A DNA stretch of 64,000 nucleotides, taken from contig JAOUOS010000002.1 in NCBI GenBank assembly GCA_029880285.1, forward strand, positions 1 through 64,000, read 5' to 3'. The DNA comes from Spirochaetia bacterium. Lineage in GTDB: Bacteria > Spirochaetota > Leptospiria > Turneriellales > JAOUOS01. The position numbers were made by a program, and so were the translations under genes. This document shows, piece by piece, positions 48,230 to 60,892 of this stretch (positions are counted from its first letter, which is position 1; each line of letters begins with the position of its first letter). The notes beneath the pieces are model-generated. The model saw only the letters and a program-made list of their open reading frames with translations. It did not search any database and was not told where the DNA came from.

Positions 48230-49579
48230 TTAACCCATTTCAAATCGATTTCTGCCGTTGTCTTTAGCCGTATAAAGAGCGGTATCGGCAAAATAAATCA
48301 TTAAGTTCATCAGCTTAGAAACAGATTTATTGGCAGATAAGGCCGTATTAATTACTTCTCTATCAACTATTGTACCCCCAATACTTATGGTTACATTCAT
48401 CACCCCTTTTTTAGACTCTACTTTCGCGTTTTCAACGCTACTTCTAATTCTTTCTGCCGCGATTTTTAAACCTCTTTCATCAGTATGGGGCAGCAATACC
48501 GAAAATTCTTCGCCGCCGTACCTTGCCACTACATCTTTATCGCGGCTTTGTTTTTCTATCTGTTTAGCCACAGATTTTAATACCTCATCGCCTATCTGAT
48601 GACCGTATGTATCATTAAAATTTTTAAAATAATCTATATCAAGCATTAAAAAGCCGATACTGCTATTTTCATTTACAGATTTTGATAACTCTGATTCCAT
48701 TTTTGAAAATAAATATCTTCTGTTGTAAAGACCGGTTAATTCATCTTTATTGGCCATTATTTCTATATTTTCTTTTTGCTTTAATACGGTATCTCTTTCA
48801 TTTAAAACATTTTCAAAGCGTTCTTTTAATGTTCTTGCCATAAAATTAAAGGAACGTGACAGTTCGGCCAATTCGTCACTGCCGTTTACTTTGGCGCGCG
48901 CGTCAAAGTTCCCTGATGCTATTTGGCGGCTAATATTATAAATTTCTTTTACCGGTGATACAACCATACGATAATGAATAAGCCCAAAAATTAAATTAAT
49001 TAACATAAATATAAAAACTGTAATAAATGACTGTTTGTACAACACAGTGCTGGCAGATTTTATCTCTTGCAGTTCATACGCTAAAATTAAAATATATTTT
49101 TCAAGAAGAGGAATTCCTAACGGTATAAGAAAGTATGTTTTCATATTTTTTGAATCAATTTCAAGAAAGAAACTTTCTCCTGAAAACTGATAATTTGCCA
49201 TAGCCTTTATTTTATGAGATTCAAAATCTGCGGGCAATGAAATTTTGTTTGAAGATCTCGCCTCAATTTCATTTAATTCATTTACAAGTATGAAATTTTC
49301 TTCAGTAGCAGAAATAATTTCTATAAGTTCTCGAATAAGTTCTGTCTTGTTTCGCGTGCTAAACATAGAATCTTCAAGCATACTTTTTGAAAATTGTTCC
49401 ATAGAATTTATTAAATTTTCTACCTTTAATTCAAGTTTAATTTTTGAGTTTTCTGATATTAAATCTGTTTGATTTTCAAAAATCATGACAACAGCAGATA
49501 ATGTTGACACGGTCATTAAAAACAAGTAAATTAAAACAACTTTAGAGCCTATTTTGTTCATTAATTTTATATTCTTCAT
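48230..49579 (-). CDS. Membrane diguanylate cyclase (sensor-HAMP-GGDEF)
   Basis: 449 aa from ATG 49579, chosen because AAAAAGG lies about ten bases upstream; an upstream in-frame start at 49624 would precede that site. TM1 is about residues 13-35, a periplasmic sensor region about 36-180, TM2 about 185-208 and HAMP about 209-262. The GGDEF domain is about 280-449 with [36 protein letters not shown] and active-site RYGGEEF, so c-di-GMP synthesis is expected. No RxxD inhibitory site is evident five residues before GGEEF. First gene of an operon with the TPR protein and the exported protein. Confidence 0.9.
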   Translation of the reverse strand: MKNIKLMNKIGSKVVLIYLFLMTVSTLSAVVMIFENQTDLISENSKIKLELKVENLINSMEQFSKSMLEDSMFSTRNKTELIRELIEIISATEENFILVNELNEIEARSSNKISLPADFESHKIKAMANYQFSGESFFLEIDSKNMKTYFLIPLGIPLLEKYILILAYELQEIKSASTVLYKQSFITVFIFMLINLIFGLIHYRMVVSPVKEIYNISRQIASGNFDARAKVNGSDELAELSRSFNFMARTLKERFENVLNERDTVLKQKENIEIMANKDELTGLYNRRYLFSKMESELSKSVNENSSIGFLMLDIDYFKNFNDTYGHQIGDEVLKSVAKQIEKQSRDKDVVARYGGEEFSVLLPHTDERGLKIAAERIRSSVENAKVESKKGVMNVTISIGGTIVDREVINTALSANKSVSKLMNLMIYFADTALYTAKDNGRNRFEMG

Positions 49580-49762: not shown

Positions 49763-50746
49763 ATGAAAACTGAACAAATACTTATAGTTGAAGACGAAGG
49801 CATTATTGCTAAAGAAATTCAAAATAGAGTTGAACGTCTTGGTTATTTAGTAACAGATATCTTAGACAGCGGCGAAGCCGCTATTGAAACCGTGCATAAT
49901 AATCAGCCTAATTTAATTTTAATGGATATTAAATTAAAAGGTGAAATGGATGGTATTGAAACAGCAAGAAAAATACGCATGCTATATAATATTCCTATTA
50001 TTTATCTTACGGCACATACAGATGAAAAAACTCTTGAAAGAGCCAAACTTACAGAACCATATGGATATATTGTAAAGCCTTTTGATGAAACTGATTTTAA
50101 AATTAGAATTGAGATGGCTTTATATAAACATAAAATGGAGTGTGAAAATAAAGAACTTTTAGAAGAAGCAAATAAAATTCTGCTAAAAAACCTTCAAATT
50201 GACAGCTTAACCGGTATCGCGAACCGCAGAAAATTTGATTTACGCATAAAAACAGAATGGAAAAGAACAGGAACATGCAGAAATTTTCTATCATTAATTT
50301 TAATTGACATTGATTATTTTAAAAATTTTAATGATACATACGGTCACCAAAAAGGCGATGATTGCCTTATTCTAACCGCTAGAACCATAGAAGCCTGCTT
50401 AACACGAAAAGGCGATTTAGCCGCGCGTTACGGAGGTGAAGAATTTGCCGTTATTATGCCGGCCACCCCTCTTGAAGGAGCCATACAGGTAGGTGAAAGA
50501 ATACGAAAAGAAGTCGAAAACCTTGCATTGCCTCACGAGAGATCACGGGTATCAGATGTTGTAACTATAAGCCTCGGCATATGCACTGTTTTTCCGAATA
50601 ATCATTTAGAATATTATGATTTAATAAAAAAAGCTGACGAGGCTTTGTATGAAGCAAAAGAAAAAGGAAGAAATCAAATTTCGTATAAAAATCTTGGAAA
50701 TTTTACGGCAAAAGAAAAAAAACAAAATGAAATTATTTTTGAATAA
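49763..50746 (+). CDS. Receiver-GGDEF response regulator (diguanylate cyclase)
   Basis: 327 aa. The receiver (1-120) has [15 protein letters not shown], Asp55 in [14 protein letters not shown], Thr in YLTAH and Lys in IVKPF. A coiled linker joins the GGDEF domain (about 150-315), with [36 protein letters not shown] and active-site [12 protein letters not shown]. The protein should make c-di-GMP when phosphorylated. It is the first gene of an operon with a STAS-like protein and a HisKA_2 kinase, its likely phosphodonor. A shortened paralog remains at 52668-52805. The start at ATG 49763 agrees with that relic, which begins MKTEKILIVED. Confidence 0.93.
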
Positions 50747-57961: not shown

Positions 57962-59551
57962 TTATTCATCACAGCAAACTTTGTTTTTACCCTGCGCTTT
58001 GGCCTTGTATAGATACTCATCTGCCTTTTTAATTAAAGATAACATATTTTTACTATCTTTCGGGTAAAGACTAAGACCGCAGCTAACAGTAACTTTTCGA
58101 TTATCAAACTTATGTGAAGCAATCATTGTAATTATACGATTTGCGTAATGTACAGCTTCTTTTTTATCAACCTCAGGAGCAATTATTAAAAATTCTTCGC
58201 CGCCAAACCTTCCTACGGTATCAGTTGAGCGCGCTGATTTTAAAAGTAAATCTGCTATTTCTTTTAATATTTTATTACCTTCAAGATGGCCAAATTCGTC
58301 ATTGTATGATTTAAAATTATCTACATCAATCATTAGAATTGAAAAAGTGAGCTTATATCGTTCTGACCGCAACATTTCTTTATTTAGTTCTTCCATTAAA
58401 TAACGGTGATTATATAATCCGGTAAGGCCGTCTACTATACTTAAACGGCGCATCTCTTCTATAGCCTTTACCCTTTCTATGGTAAGCGCGGCATATACGG
58501 TAAGAAGAGAGAAAAGAGAAATATCTTCAATTCTTGTCTTTTTAATTTTAAAATCACACGCAAAAATAACACCAACAATACGTCCATCTACGGTCAAAGA
58601 AGAAACTAATACTGATTTAACGCCTTCTTCTAAAAGTTTCGGAGCCGGCTTATCATAATTGTTTAAATCATTTATATACAAGGGATATGATTGATTAAAA
58701 ACTGAATTTATAAGCCCGCCCTTAGATATTGACCATCTATCTTTTTTTCTAAATTTATCAGTGAATCCTTTTGATGCAATTAGTTTTAAATCTTCTGTTT
58801 TTTCATCAAAAATAGCTAGACACCCAGCAGGCATGTTTGTTAATTTTGTCGCGTAGTCAACTATAGCGAAACCCGCGTCTTTCATGCTGTCTATATTCTC
58901 AATAATTAAACCCAGATGATAAAGATTTTCATGTTCTTTCAACATCTTTTCTTTTTCTTCATACCGCTTTCTTCTTTCTTCAGCCAGCTTCCACATTAAA
59001 TTAGCCGCGAGACCGCCCATAATTTCGGTCTTTTCAGATTTAATTTGTTTAAGCTCTTCAAAAACCATCCTATTACCGGTTACATCAATCACCAACTCTA
59101 TGTCATCTGTTAATAAATCGCGGTATTTGGTATAAATAGGAACTTTAAGCCGTTTGGCCAAGAAAATACCATTGGCCATCGGGTTTAGATCAGCAACACC
59201 AACAATGTTTATAATACTATTATCTTTAAGCATTTCAAGAATCGCGCTACCGCCCCTGCCGCAACCAACAATAGCTACATTATGTTTTTCTTCTGTTTCG
59301 CTAAGTGTCTTTTTATTGTTTTCTTTTATTTTACCTGATTTTTGGGCCCATTCAATAGCGTCATCAATTGATTCGACTTTTAATTTTTTTACGATATTTT
59401 CAAAATGATAATTTACGGCAGTATTAGATTTGTGTATTAATATACTTATTTCGTTTTCAGTTCTACCTTCATAAAGCCATCTTAAAATATCAATTTCTGT
59501 ACTATCAAGAATTTTTGCGGTTTTTTTAGATTTTTTTGAATTACTGTTCAT
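57962..59551 (-). CDS. LuxR HTH-Rossmann-GAF-GGDEF protein (unusual diguanylate cyclase)
   Basis: 529 aa, cytoplasmic. A LuxR-type HTH comes first (about 14-72: LDSTEIDILRWLYEGRTENEISILIHKS, VNYHFENIVKKL). A Rossmann NAD(P)-binding domain follows (about 90-195: VAIVGCGRGGSAILEML, VVGVADLNPMANGI-like, IDVTGNRMVFEEL). Next is a GAF domain (about 210-360) and a GGDEF domain (about 365-529) with DGLTGLYNHRYLM, MIDVDNFKSYNDEFGHLEGNKIL and active-site RFGGEEF. It could link redox cofactor state to c-di-GMP and DNA binding. The Rossmann GxGxxG is intact as GCGRGG. The HTH may serve a role other than DNA binding. No operon partner. Confidence 0.88.
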   Translation of the reverse strand: MNSNSKKSKKTAKILDSTEIDILRWLYEGRTENEISILIHKSNTAVNYHFENIVKKLKVESIDDAIEWAQKSGKIKENNKKTLSETEEKHNVAIVGCGRGGSAILEMLKDNSIINIVGVADLNPMANGIFLAKRLKVPIYTKYRDLLTDDIELVIDVTGNRMVFEELKQIKSEKTEIMGGLAANLMWKLAEERRKRYEEKEKMLKEHENLYHLGLIIENIDSMKDAGFAIVDYATKLTNMPAGCLAIFDEKTEDLKLIASKGFTDKFRKKDRWSISKGGLINSVFNQSYPLYINDLNNYDKPAPKLLEEGVKSVLVSSLTVDGRIVGVIFACDFKIKKTRIEDISLFSLLTVYAALTIERVKAIEEMRRLSIVDGLTGLYNHRYLMEELNKEMLRSERYKLTFSILMIDVDNFKSYNDEFGHLEGNKILKEIADLLLKSARSTDTVGRFGGEEFLIIAPEVDKKEAVHYANRIITMIASHKFDNRKVTVSCGLSLYPKDSKNMLSLIKKADEYLYKAKAQGKNKVCCDE

Positions 59552-59875
59552 TTATCAAGAAAAAATACATCGTACATAACCCAGACTATATTATTTCTTC
59601 AAAATGTAAATTATTTTGAAACATTATTGAAGTAGCCTATAAAAAAACATTTATAAAATTGACAAATATCAATAAATTTGTAACGCAATATTAATTTTAG
59701 ATAGATACCCATTTATAAGTTAGATGTCTATATCAACCGCACTATTATTTTGGGTGTGAGTTCAAAAAAAATAGGGAAAATAAATAACTTTTCAAACGGC
59801 GACCCTATTATTTTTATAATAAAAATACTTTATTTTAATTGACACAGAAGCTGATTTTTTTATTTATTTATCTTT
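59552..59875. other. Divergent intergenic region with inverted repeats
   Basis: No gene is supported. It separates the LuxR-GGDEF gene (minus) from the membrane protein gene (plus). A perfect inverted repeat TTCAAAAT (59598-59605)/ATTTTGAA (59613-59620) with a 7-base spacer lies about 50 bases before the minus-strand gene and may be an operator. A weaker one, ACAAAT (59662-59667)/ATTTGT (59676-59681), follows TTGACA at 59659. The plus-strand promoter is at 59839. Confidence 0.4.
59839..59866 (+). promoter_or_regulatory. Promoter of the membrane protein/AraC operon
   Basis: A consensus TTGACA (59839-59844) is followed after 16 bases by TATTTA (59861-59866). Transcription should begin near 59873, only a few bases before ATG 59876, so the mRNA may be leaderless or nearly so. 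Confidence 0.5.
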
Positions 59876-60892
59876 ATGAATATAATGAATAATCAGACTT
59901 TAAGTTTTCGTCAATTAGTATTAATTATCTTTTTACCTCTTGCTGTTATTTTTTTTATAATCGCTCTGTTAAAAACACAAGCTGAAAAACAATATATTGA
60001 TACTTTATCAACCGCGGCAACTTATGATTTACTTTTCACTATCCCCTTTGTTTACTTTCTTTTAATTCGAAAAACAACAATTTCAAATTTTACTGTAATA
60101 CCAGTTTTTATTTTAATGATGTCAATAGCGTCTTTCATTGTACCACCAGAACATTCTATACATTTAATTATTATTAAAAATTATTTTTTTCCTATTATTG
60201 AAACAGTTTTTATTGTTTTTATTATTACAAAAACAGTAAAACAAATACGCATCTTTAAACAAAAAAAACTTGTTTCACAAGATACATTTTCGATTTTAAA
60301 AGAAACATTAAACTATTTGCTACCAAAAACTGTAGCGAATATTTTTCAACTGGAACTTGGCGTTATTTATTTCGCTCTTTTCAAATGGCGAACTAAAAAA
60401 TCGTTATTAACTTTTACATACCATAAAAATGGAATACTATCTATTCTTGGTGTACTAATATTTATGATATTTATTGAAACCTTTGTTATGCACATCTTAC
60501 TAATAAGATGGAACATTTATGCCGCGTGGATTTTTACATCTATAAGTATCTACAGCGCTTTTCAAATTTTCGGTCTTATAAAATCTTTAATAACTTATCC
60601 CGTTAAAATTCAAAAAGACAGCCTTATATTACGCTATGGCTTTTTAAGAGAAAGTATAATTTTATTAGATCAAATTCAAAAAGTAGAATTCACGTCATCT
60701 GAAATATCAAAAAATAAAGAGATAAAAATATTTTCGCCTTTTGATACGTTTGAATCGCCTAATATTATCATTCATTTGAAAAACGAAAACACTATAAATA
60801 CCTTATGGAACAAACCCATTAAATATAAATCTTTAGCAATATATATTGATGATAAAAATAATTTTATAAATACTTTAAATAAATATGTTTAA
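59876..60892 (+). CDS. Polytopic membrane protein with cytoplasmic β-rich C-terminal domain
   Basis: 338 aa. About six or seven TM helices fill residues 15-245 (for example LVLIIFLPLAVIFFIIALL, LLFTIPFVYFLLI, LSILGVLIFMIFIETFVMHILLI). The C-terminal 90 residues (ILRYGFLRESIILLDQIQKVEF, NIIIHLKNENTINTLW) resemble a bacterial PH-like domain, tentatively. No named family is recognised. A second Met at 59885 is an alternative start. It overlaps the AraC-type gene by 8 bases, so the two are surely coupled and may act as a sensor pair. Confidence 0.7.
   Translation: MNIMNNQTLSFRQLVLIIFLPLAVIFFIIALLKTQAEKQYIDTLSTAATYDLLFTIPFVYFLLIRKTTISNFTVIPVFILMMSIASFIVPPEHSIHLIIIKNYFFPIIETVFIVFIITKTVKQIRIFKQKKLVSQDTFSILKETLNYLLPKTVANIFQLELGVIYFALFKWRTKKSLLTFTYHKNGILSILGVLIFMIFIETFVMHILLIRWNIYAAWIFTSISIYSAFQIFGLIKSLITYPVKIQKDSLILRYGFLRESIILLDQIQKVEFTSSEISKNKEIKIFSPFDTFESPNIIIHLKNENTINTLWNKPIKYKSLAIYIDDKNNFINTLNKYV

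Follow-up and report, generated by a model that had tools for sequence, protein, structure and literature searches.

A 2022 review of sensing by the c-di-GMP network lists haem, flavin, haemerythrin and disulfide redox sensors (PMC8846402). The word "Rossmann" is absent from the available text of this review, and its passages on NADH, among the matches listed, concern an NADH/NAD+ ratio that acts indirectly (PMC8846402). According to a paper from 2025, no earlier work had revealed any connection of c-di-GMP signalling to NAD metabolism; in the case described there, it is c-di-GMP that acts on NAD synthesis (PMC12421817). The guanine base is read in PleD by N335 and D344 (PMC12943098, PMC7288161), and the latter residue is reported to be essential for GGDEF activity (PMC7288161). 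Enzymes that strictly make c-di-GMP conserve an Asp at this specificity position, where the Hypr enzymes have Ser or Thr (PMC9140294). Under the published Hypr rule, Ser/Thr at the specificity position has to be paired with a GGDE[F/Y] motif, an accompanying distance rule excludes Ser in combination with GGEEF, and the cross-dimer residue is an Arg in 94% of the predicted diguanylate cyclases (PMC6456294).

The gene reported here is a complete open reading frame, from ATG to stop codon, in a window of 64,000 nucleotides, by which we mean the whole stretch of DNA that was analysed. Its features are as follows:

57962-59551, minus strand: whole gene for the HTH-Rossmann-GAF-GGDEF protein, 529 amino acids (open reading frame, Pfam, homologues)
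59345-59509, minus strand: LuxR/GerE-type HTH, residues 15-69 (Pfam GerE, E 4.7e-10; order kept in homologues), with the recognition helix KSNTAVNYHFENIVKKL
59012-59287, minus strand: Rossmann sensory module, residues 89-180 approximately (model pLDDT 93, PDB matches, conservation in 100 modules)
Residues 156-159 of the protein, minus strand: DVTG of the Rossmann module (sequence)
58898-59011, minus strand: signal helix leading from the Rossmann module to the GAF domain, residues 181-218 (one helix in the model; best-conserved segment)
58475-58867, minus strand: GAF domain, residues 229-359 (Pfam GAF_2, E 6.8e-11; model)
57980-58438, minus strand: GGDEF cyclase domain, residues 372-524 (Pfam, E 5.5e-45; same place in the GGDEF search of its own genome)
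58274-58276, minus strand: Asn 426 at the guanine-specificity position, corresponding to PleD D344 and GacA S347/348 (ungapped alignment to solved GGDEF domains; survey)
58220-58231, minus strand: RxxD product-inhibition site, RSTD, residues 441-444 (sequence, GGDEF survey)
58190-58204, minus strand: active-site GGEEF, residues 450-454 (sequence, alignment)

The first-pass annotation of this DNA had read the protein as an HTH, a Rossmann domain, a GAF domain and a GGDEF domain in one chain, and both the list and the order of these domains are borne out by Pfam, by an AlphaFold2 model and by homologues. In a Pfam scan of the whole protein, the GAF_2, GerE and GGDEF matches all lie above their cut-offs (GerE/LuxR 39.4 bits against 23.5; GGDEF, PF00990, 153.5 bits against 23.8), and the motifs GCGRGG (residues 96-101), IDVTGNR (155-161) and GGEEF are present as had been quoted. 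An oxidoreductase catalytic half, whose absence had also been proposed, is indeed lacking: the last Rossmann strand leads via a helix directly into the GAF domain, and neither Pfam nor the model reveals a C-terminal catalytic domain of the Gfo/Idh/MocA, DapB or homoserine dehydrogenase type. An oxidoreductase with a frameshift and a gene-fusion artefact were both considered and rejected, as the same junctions are found in the copy of a second genome of the same family (G001) and in those of a second phylum. Homologues sharing as little as about 50% identity still show this domain order, which is therefore the product neither of chance nor of misassembly. The AlphaFold2 model of the full chain, computed with nine family sequences, has a mean pLDDT of 83.8 and a pTM of 0.41, so that the inter-domain arrangement is unreliable; a VIA-align search with this full-length model was dominated by GGDEF and GAF chains and was uninformative with respect to the HTH and the Rossmann unit.

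On the basis of these data, we favour a reading of the protein as a soluble sensor-cyclase in which a Rossmann input of the NAD(H) type would switch a GGDEF output; taken as a whole, this reading has in our judgement about an even chance of being correct. In this scheme, the Rossmann unit would report the redox or NAD state of the cell by binding a nucleotide that bears a ribose, NAD+ or NADH being the most likely ones. The order of the domains, their predicted folds, the conservation of motifs and helix and the recurrence in two phyla are shown by the data; ligand, direction of regulation, product and DNA binding are inferred.

The Rossmann segment (residues 91-176) yields, in the whole-protein Pfam scan, matches to DapB_N (2.6e-5), NAD_binding_3 (3.3e-4) and GFO_IDH_MocA (4.4e-4) that each lie just below the cut-off, and it exceeds the cut-offs of these same three families by 0.8 to 2.1 bits when scanned alone. 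Structure prediction of this segment, which had been suggested as a check, returned a confident Rossmann fold: AlphaFold2, run on the segment alone with 100 module sequences, gave a pLDDT of 93.2, with strands at residues 90-95, 114-120, 153-156 and 176-178 and the helix 181-218 directly after them. Both Foldseek and VIA-align match this model to the Rossmann domains of NAD-linked dehydrogenases. Its best solved matches are Rossmann domains that bind cofactors, such as 1nvm_H (Z 12.6, 92 residues, 1.6 A) and GenD2 with NAD (6nor_B; Z 12.3, 96 residues, 1.9 A). Lower matches are to Rex repressors, namely 3wg9_D (Z 10.1, 86 residues, 2.2 A) and a second chain (Z 9.7, 88 residues, 2.4 A). The nucleotide-binding loop, described earlier as preserved, has kept all three of its glycines (G96, G98, G101) in the window protein, and the acid at the tip of the second strand (D121) completes the GxGxxG-type signature. 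In Rossmann folds, this acidic tip binds the ribose (PMC4777477). Across the 100 modules, G96 is conserved in 99, G98 in 97, T158 in 93 and G159 in 86, and position 121 is occupied by Asp in 83 and by Glu in 16. An acidic tip of the second strand disfavours NADP. Fold, loop and this nearly invariant acid favour an NAD(H)-type molecule as the candidate ligand, and the acid favours NAD(H) over NADP(H). The third loop glycine is a Cys in 58 and a Gly in 37 of the 100 modules, and the candidate ligand may for this reason differ between members.

Two other interpretations of the module have to be weighed against this assignment. The Rossmann unit might sense a different nucleotide, for instance CoA or acyl-CoA, a nucleotide sugar or SAM; an acylating acetaldehyde dehydrogenase is found among its best sequence and fold matches, and 6 of the 100 modules give a weak match to CoA_binding. 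We consider this unlikely, as an acid retained at the second strand in 99 of 100 modules suits an NAD-type ribose and most of the matches are NAD-linked dehydrogenases. Alternatively, the unit might bind nothing and serve as a protein-protein or structural relay, in which case sensing would fall to the GAF domain and the protein would otherwise be a GAF-GGDEF cyclase of the usual kind. The non-glycine residues found at the third loop position in 63 of the 100 modules would fit such a relay, but 97 to 99 of them have retained G96, G98 and the acid of the second strand, with drift at other positions.

The distribution of the module speaks to its function as well. In the phylum of the window's own genome (G000), 36 of 392 genomes were matched at E 1e-5 by a query comprising the Rossmann and GAF segments, and only the own genome and G001 among them match the whole query; the remaining matches are partial, mostly to the GAF or to the Rossmann segment only. 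The protein of G001 is 72% identical over the window protein. A scan of named genomes yielded a single locus, a histidine kinase of a Desulfobacterales bacterium (L058), which provided the entry into the second phylum, that of the Desulfobacterales genome G392. At E 1e-15, the Rossmann module is found in 59 of 198 genomes of the second phylum and, as strong a match, in 10 of 383 genomes of the own phylum, where weaker matches include ordinary dehydrogenases. That these are two different phyla is based on the separate genome sets obtained around G000 and G392.

After flanks had been fetched and duplicates removed, the second phylum contributed 89 distinct open reading frames with the module, sorted mostly by motif: 39 carry a kinase ATPase motif, 11 a GGDEF domain and 3 a sigma-54 AAA+ domain, 7 are stand-alone, 18 are others of at least 190 amino acids, and 11 run off the fetched stretch. 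Pfam analysis of 10 of the 18 others recovered HisKA, HisKA_3 and/or HATPase_c in eight (weakly in L119), a PAS domain only in one and an MCP domain in one. Fused as it is to four kinds of output (kinase, sigma-54 AAA+, GGDEF and MCP), the Rossmann unit behaves, as judged from these sequences, like a sensory module that can be combined with many outputs; it has no Pfam family of its own. Two of the GGDEF proteins carry the module without any GAF domain (L098, L130), and it also occurs alone in small proteins; both facts speak against a relay that would serve a GAF sensor.

The protein with the MCP signalling domain (L177:2505-3236) is a possible soluble chemoreceptor, and five proteins with a kinase ATPase motif (L115, L133, L137, L144, L152) carry the Rossmann module twice, one copy after the other. 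Proteins of only about 120-160 amino acids that consist of a Rossmann unit related to the module are present both in the own order (e.g. G000:C60:32299-32631, which is L088) and in the second phylum; the loci are L088, L068, L087, L045, L147, L153, L155, L167, L171, L178 and L179. A comparison of their flanks brought to light no shared neighbours that would indicate a ligand.

The first-pass annotation knew of no characterised protein with this order of domains, and the literature searched for links of NAD/Rossmann or HTH units to GGDEF or kinase sensors yielded none. Likewise, no description of the HTH-Rossmann-GAF-GGDEF architecture or of the Rossmann module was found in the literature searched, outside of which most subscription papers lie. 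The architecture is not a one-off, however. Beyond G001, it recurs in 6 of 395 genomes of the second phylum, with five intact copies (L097 in G435, L109 in G446, L111 in G539, L183 in G715, L184 in G613) and one truncated by the end of its contig (L185 in G676); the HTH of L184 gives a weak Pfam score of 19.9 bits, short of the cut-off of 23.5. Uniqueness of the window protein is accordingly rejected. Three further proteins have the Rossmann-GAF-GGDEF order without the HTH (L117, L132, L158). G539 and G715 each possess a second, tandem copy in which the GGEEF motif has been destroyed: it reads HDGEF in L169, which has kept its HTH, and GDNRF in L192, in which an HTH was not found. These two proteins could be regulatory partners of the adjoining intact copies.

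In a phylogenetic tree, the HTH-type proteins and the tandem copies are split from the three HTH-less proteins with a support of 100/100, and the window protein and that of G001 are placed beside L097 with a support of 82/89. Gene transfer between the two phyla is suggested by this placement, but an AU test does not reject a topology in which the eight sequences of the second phylum, HTH-type and tandem, form one group (p 0.076). There are no conserved neighbours shared between the gene in the window, that of G001 and those of the second phylum, nor does an operon partner give a hint of the ligand, and a plasmid search returned no match. In G446, G539 and G715, the gene lies in a chromosomal stretch conserved among the three genomes (L196, L197, L198), flanked by what, by eye, we take to be gyrB and the NAD+-dependent DNA ligase gene ligA; we read these flanks as background synteny.

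The helix that connects the Rossmann module to the GAF domain is the best-conserved segment of the protein. It is identical in 35 of 38 positions to that of G001 and in 28, 26 and 25 of 38 to those of L097, L109 and L111, respectively, and only 5 of 38 positions are retained in L169, which has lost its GGDEF site. This joint decay of helix and catalytic site fits a relay of the signal from the Rossmann unit to the cyclase. In the favoured reading, the bound and free states of the module would be passed through the helix into the GAF domain, which would act as a second input or as a relay, and from there into the helix in front of the GGDEF dimer, so that cyclic-dinucleotide synthesis would be switched. 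Relative to L097, L109 and L111, the GAF domain (58-62% identity) and the GGDEF domain (54-59%) are more conserved than the Rossmann segment (38-43%), as would be expected if the latter were a non-binding element; in view of the nearly invariant loop positions and of the modules without a GAF domain, we regard that explanation as possible but rather unlikely, and retain the sensor-cyclase reading.

The role of the N-terminal LuxR-type HTH is probably that of a DNA tether of the cyclase or of a dimerisation element. The recognition helix, KSRYTVKYHLKNIMKKL in L109, has diverged to KSNTAVNYHFENIVKKL in the window protein; the residues TVKYH of L109 correspond to AVNYH in the window protein and to AVNYE in G001. 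Given this drift, the DNA-binding role that had been entertained for the window protein is doubtful, and DNA binding, as predicted from sequence, is least certain in the lineage formed by the window protein and G001. An inspection of the upstream region (59540-59880) for an operator returned inverted repeats that look like low-complexity AT matches only.

A further departure from the expected concerns the cyclase itself. A gap-free alignment to solved GGDEF domains places Asn 426 where the canonical guanine-reading Asp would stand. The best phmmer match of the GGDEF domain is 6d9m, in which a GGDEF domain from Geobacter is fused to T4 lysozyme; this domain, which we take to be that of GacA, has a Ser at the aligned position. 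We surveyed 83 distinct GGDEF segments, 74 with an intact signature and nine degenerate, drawn from the 20 matches to GGDEF in the own genome, from 30 of the 91 matches of six second-phylum genomes, and from loci collected as neighbours of the window protein. All ten intact Rossmann-GAF-GGDEF proteins have Asn, as opposed to none of the 61 scorable other intact GGDEF domains, in a non-random sample whose ten Asn proteins are at least partly related by descent. Both intact Rossmann-GGDEF proteins without a GAF domain have Asp, and the 62 other intact domains comprise 59 with Asp, two with Ser and one that is cut short. Six of the nine degenerate segments belong to Rossmann proteins, five of these with Asn, and some of them represent one gene twice. 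A tree of the GGDEF domains only, computed from 72 rows after masking of the two key columns, does not bring the ten Asn rows together and implies four state changes when the Ser rows are included; as it is weakly resolved, we make no claim for a single or a repeated origin of the Asn. The two Ser-type proteins of the second phylum, L255 (G446) and L249 (G539), combine this residue with a GGDEF motif and are candidate Hypr cGAMP synthases.

The proposal that the protein is a c-di-GMP synthase stands on less firm ground than its intact GGEEF site implies. The product probably is c-di-GMP, but with an Asn at the position that reads guanine, it should not be taken for granted that c-di-GMP is the sole product; this residue may allow a relaxed or altered choice of purine. 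Asp-to-Asn changes in GTP-binding proteins alter base preference, and a changed preference resulting from Asn 426 is, by analogy, a fair hypothesis. Since Asn is as long as Asp, its combination with GGEEF should be geometrically possible. The cross-dimer residue of the ten proteins is His in six (including the window protein), Gln in three and Tyr in one; 18 of the 59 Asp-type domains likewise have a residue other than Arg there, so that it is weak evidence. The enzyme could be weak or inactive because Asn 426 departs from the canonical Asp, whose PleD counterpart D344 is reported to be essential (PMC7288161). Taken further, the GGDEF domain would be no working GTP cyclase at all, its guanine recognition having been lost through the uniformly present Asn, and the protein would be a product-less regulator bound to DNA or a nucleotide; the existence of tandem paralogues with a destroyed GGEEF in G539 and G715 would be in line with this. 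GGEEF and RxxD are, however, both intact in all ten proteins, and the coexistence of intact with clearly degenerate copies argues for selection on the site in the intact ones, for which reason we view loss of activity as improbable and keep to a functional cyclase.

The own genome, with 20 GGDEF and 5 PilZ matches, provides c-di-GMP-type signalling into which this cyclase could feed. Two more GGDEF domains are encoded in the same window, at 48245-48754 on the minus strand and at 50198-50677 on the plus strand. A c-di-GMP-I riboswitch was detected in 4 of the 10 genomes searched (G435, G539, G715, G516) and in neither the own genome nor G001; the window copy thus has no riboswitch target of this class in its own genome.

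As judged from these comparisons, the window protein is a member of a small, uncharacterised family of sensor-cyclases that is present in two phyla, is built on a widespread Rossmann module and has an unusual specificity residue. A far-reaching extension of the sensor-cyclase reading would be that NAD(H) gates a whole family of GGDEF enzymes, which transfer has probably carried across phyla and in which the fixed Asn together with GGEEF leads to a choice of substrate not confined to GTP, so that, upon a redox cue, a different cyclic dinucleotide would be made in place of c-di-GMP or in addition to it, in some lineages by an enzyme tethered to DNA through its HTH; in this complete form, we consider it a long shot. 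The protein may link cell metabolism to second-messenger signalling, and a Rossmann-gated cyclase, if real, would constitute the reverse arrow to the action of c-di-GMP on NAD synthesis. The identity of the module's ligand would explain many orphan sensors, including kinases, sigma-54 activators and an MCP-domain protein, in 59 of 198 genomes, and the Asn signature represents a specificity class that is covered neither by the published Asp rule nor by the Ser/Thr rule and offers a sharp biochemical test.

When viewed against known systems, the module shares fold and loop with the cofactor domains of acylating acetaldehyde and homoserine dehydrogenases, DapB and Gfo/Idh/MocA proteins but lacks their catalytic half. 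The Rossmann-PAS-histidine kinases and related signalling proteins of the G392 phylum resemble the window protein in having the module at or near the N-terminus; they differ from it in their kinase, AAA+ or MCP output and in a loop that often reads GGGxxC. The Rex redox repressors likewise couple a Rossmann unit to a DNA-binding domain. The DNA-binding fold of Rex is a winged HTH, and a scan of the window protein for the Rex DNA-binding Pfam family gave no match at E up to 1; its LuxR-type HTH and its cyclase output are both foreign to Rex. PleD, WspR and IsPadC (GGDEF, PF00990) agree with the window protein in fold, GGEEF and I-site residues, and GGDEF cyclases are its top solved matches, but it has Asn for Asp at the specificity position and a Rossmann input and an HTH in front. 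The Hypr enzymes GacA and Bd0367 share with it a residue other than Asp at this position and other than Arg at the cross-dimer site; whereas they combine Ser/Thr with GGDEF, the window protein combines Asn with GGEEF, which does not match the Hypr signature and places it outside the published Ser/Thr rule.
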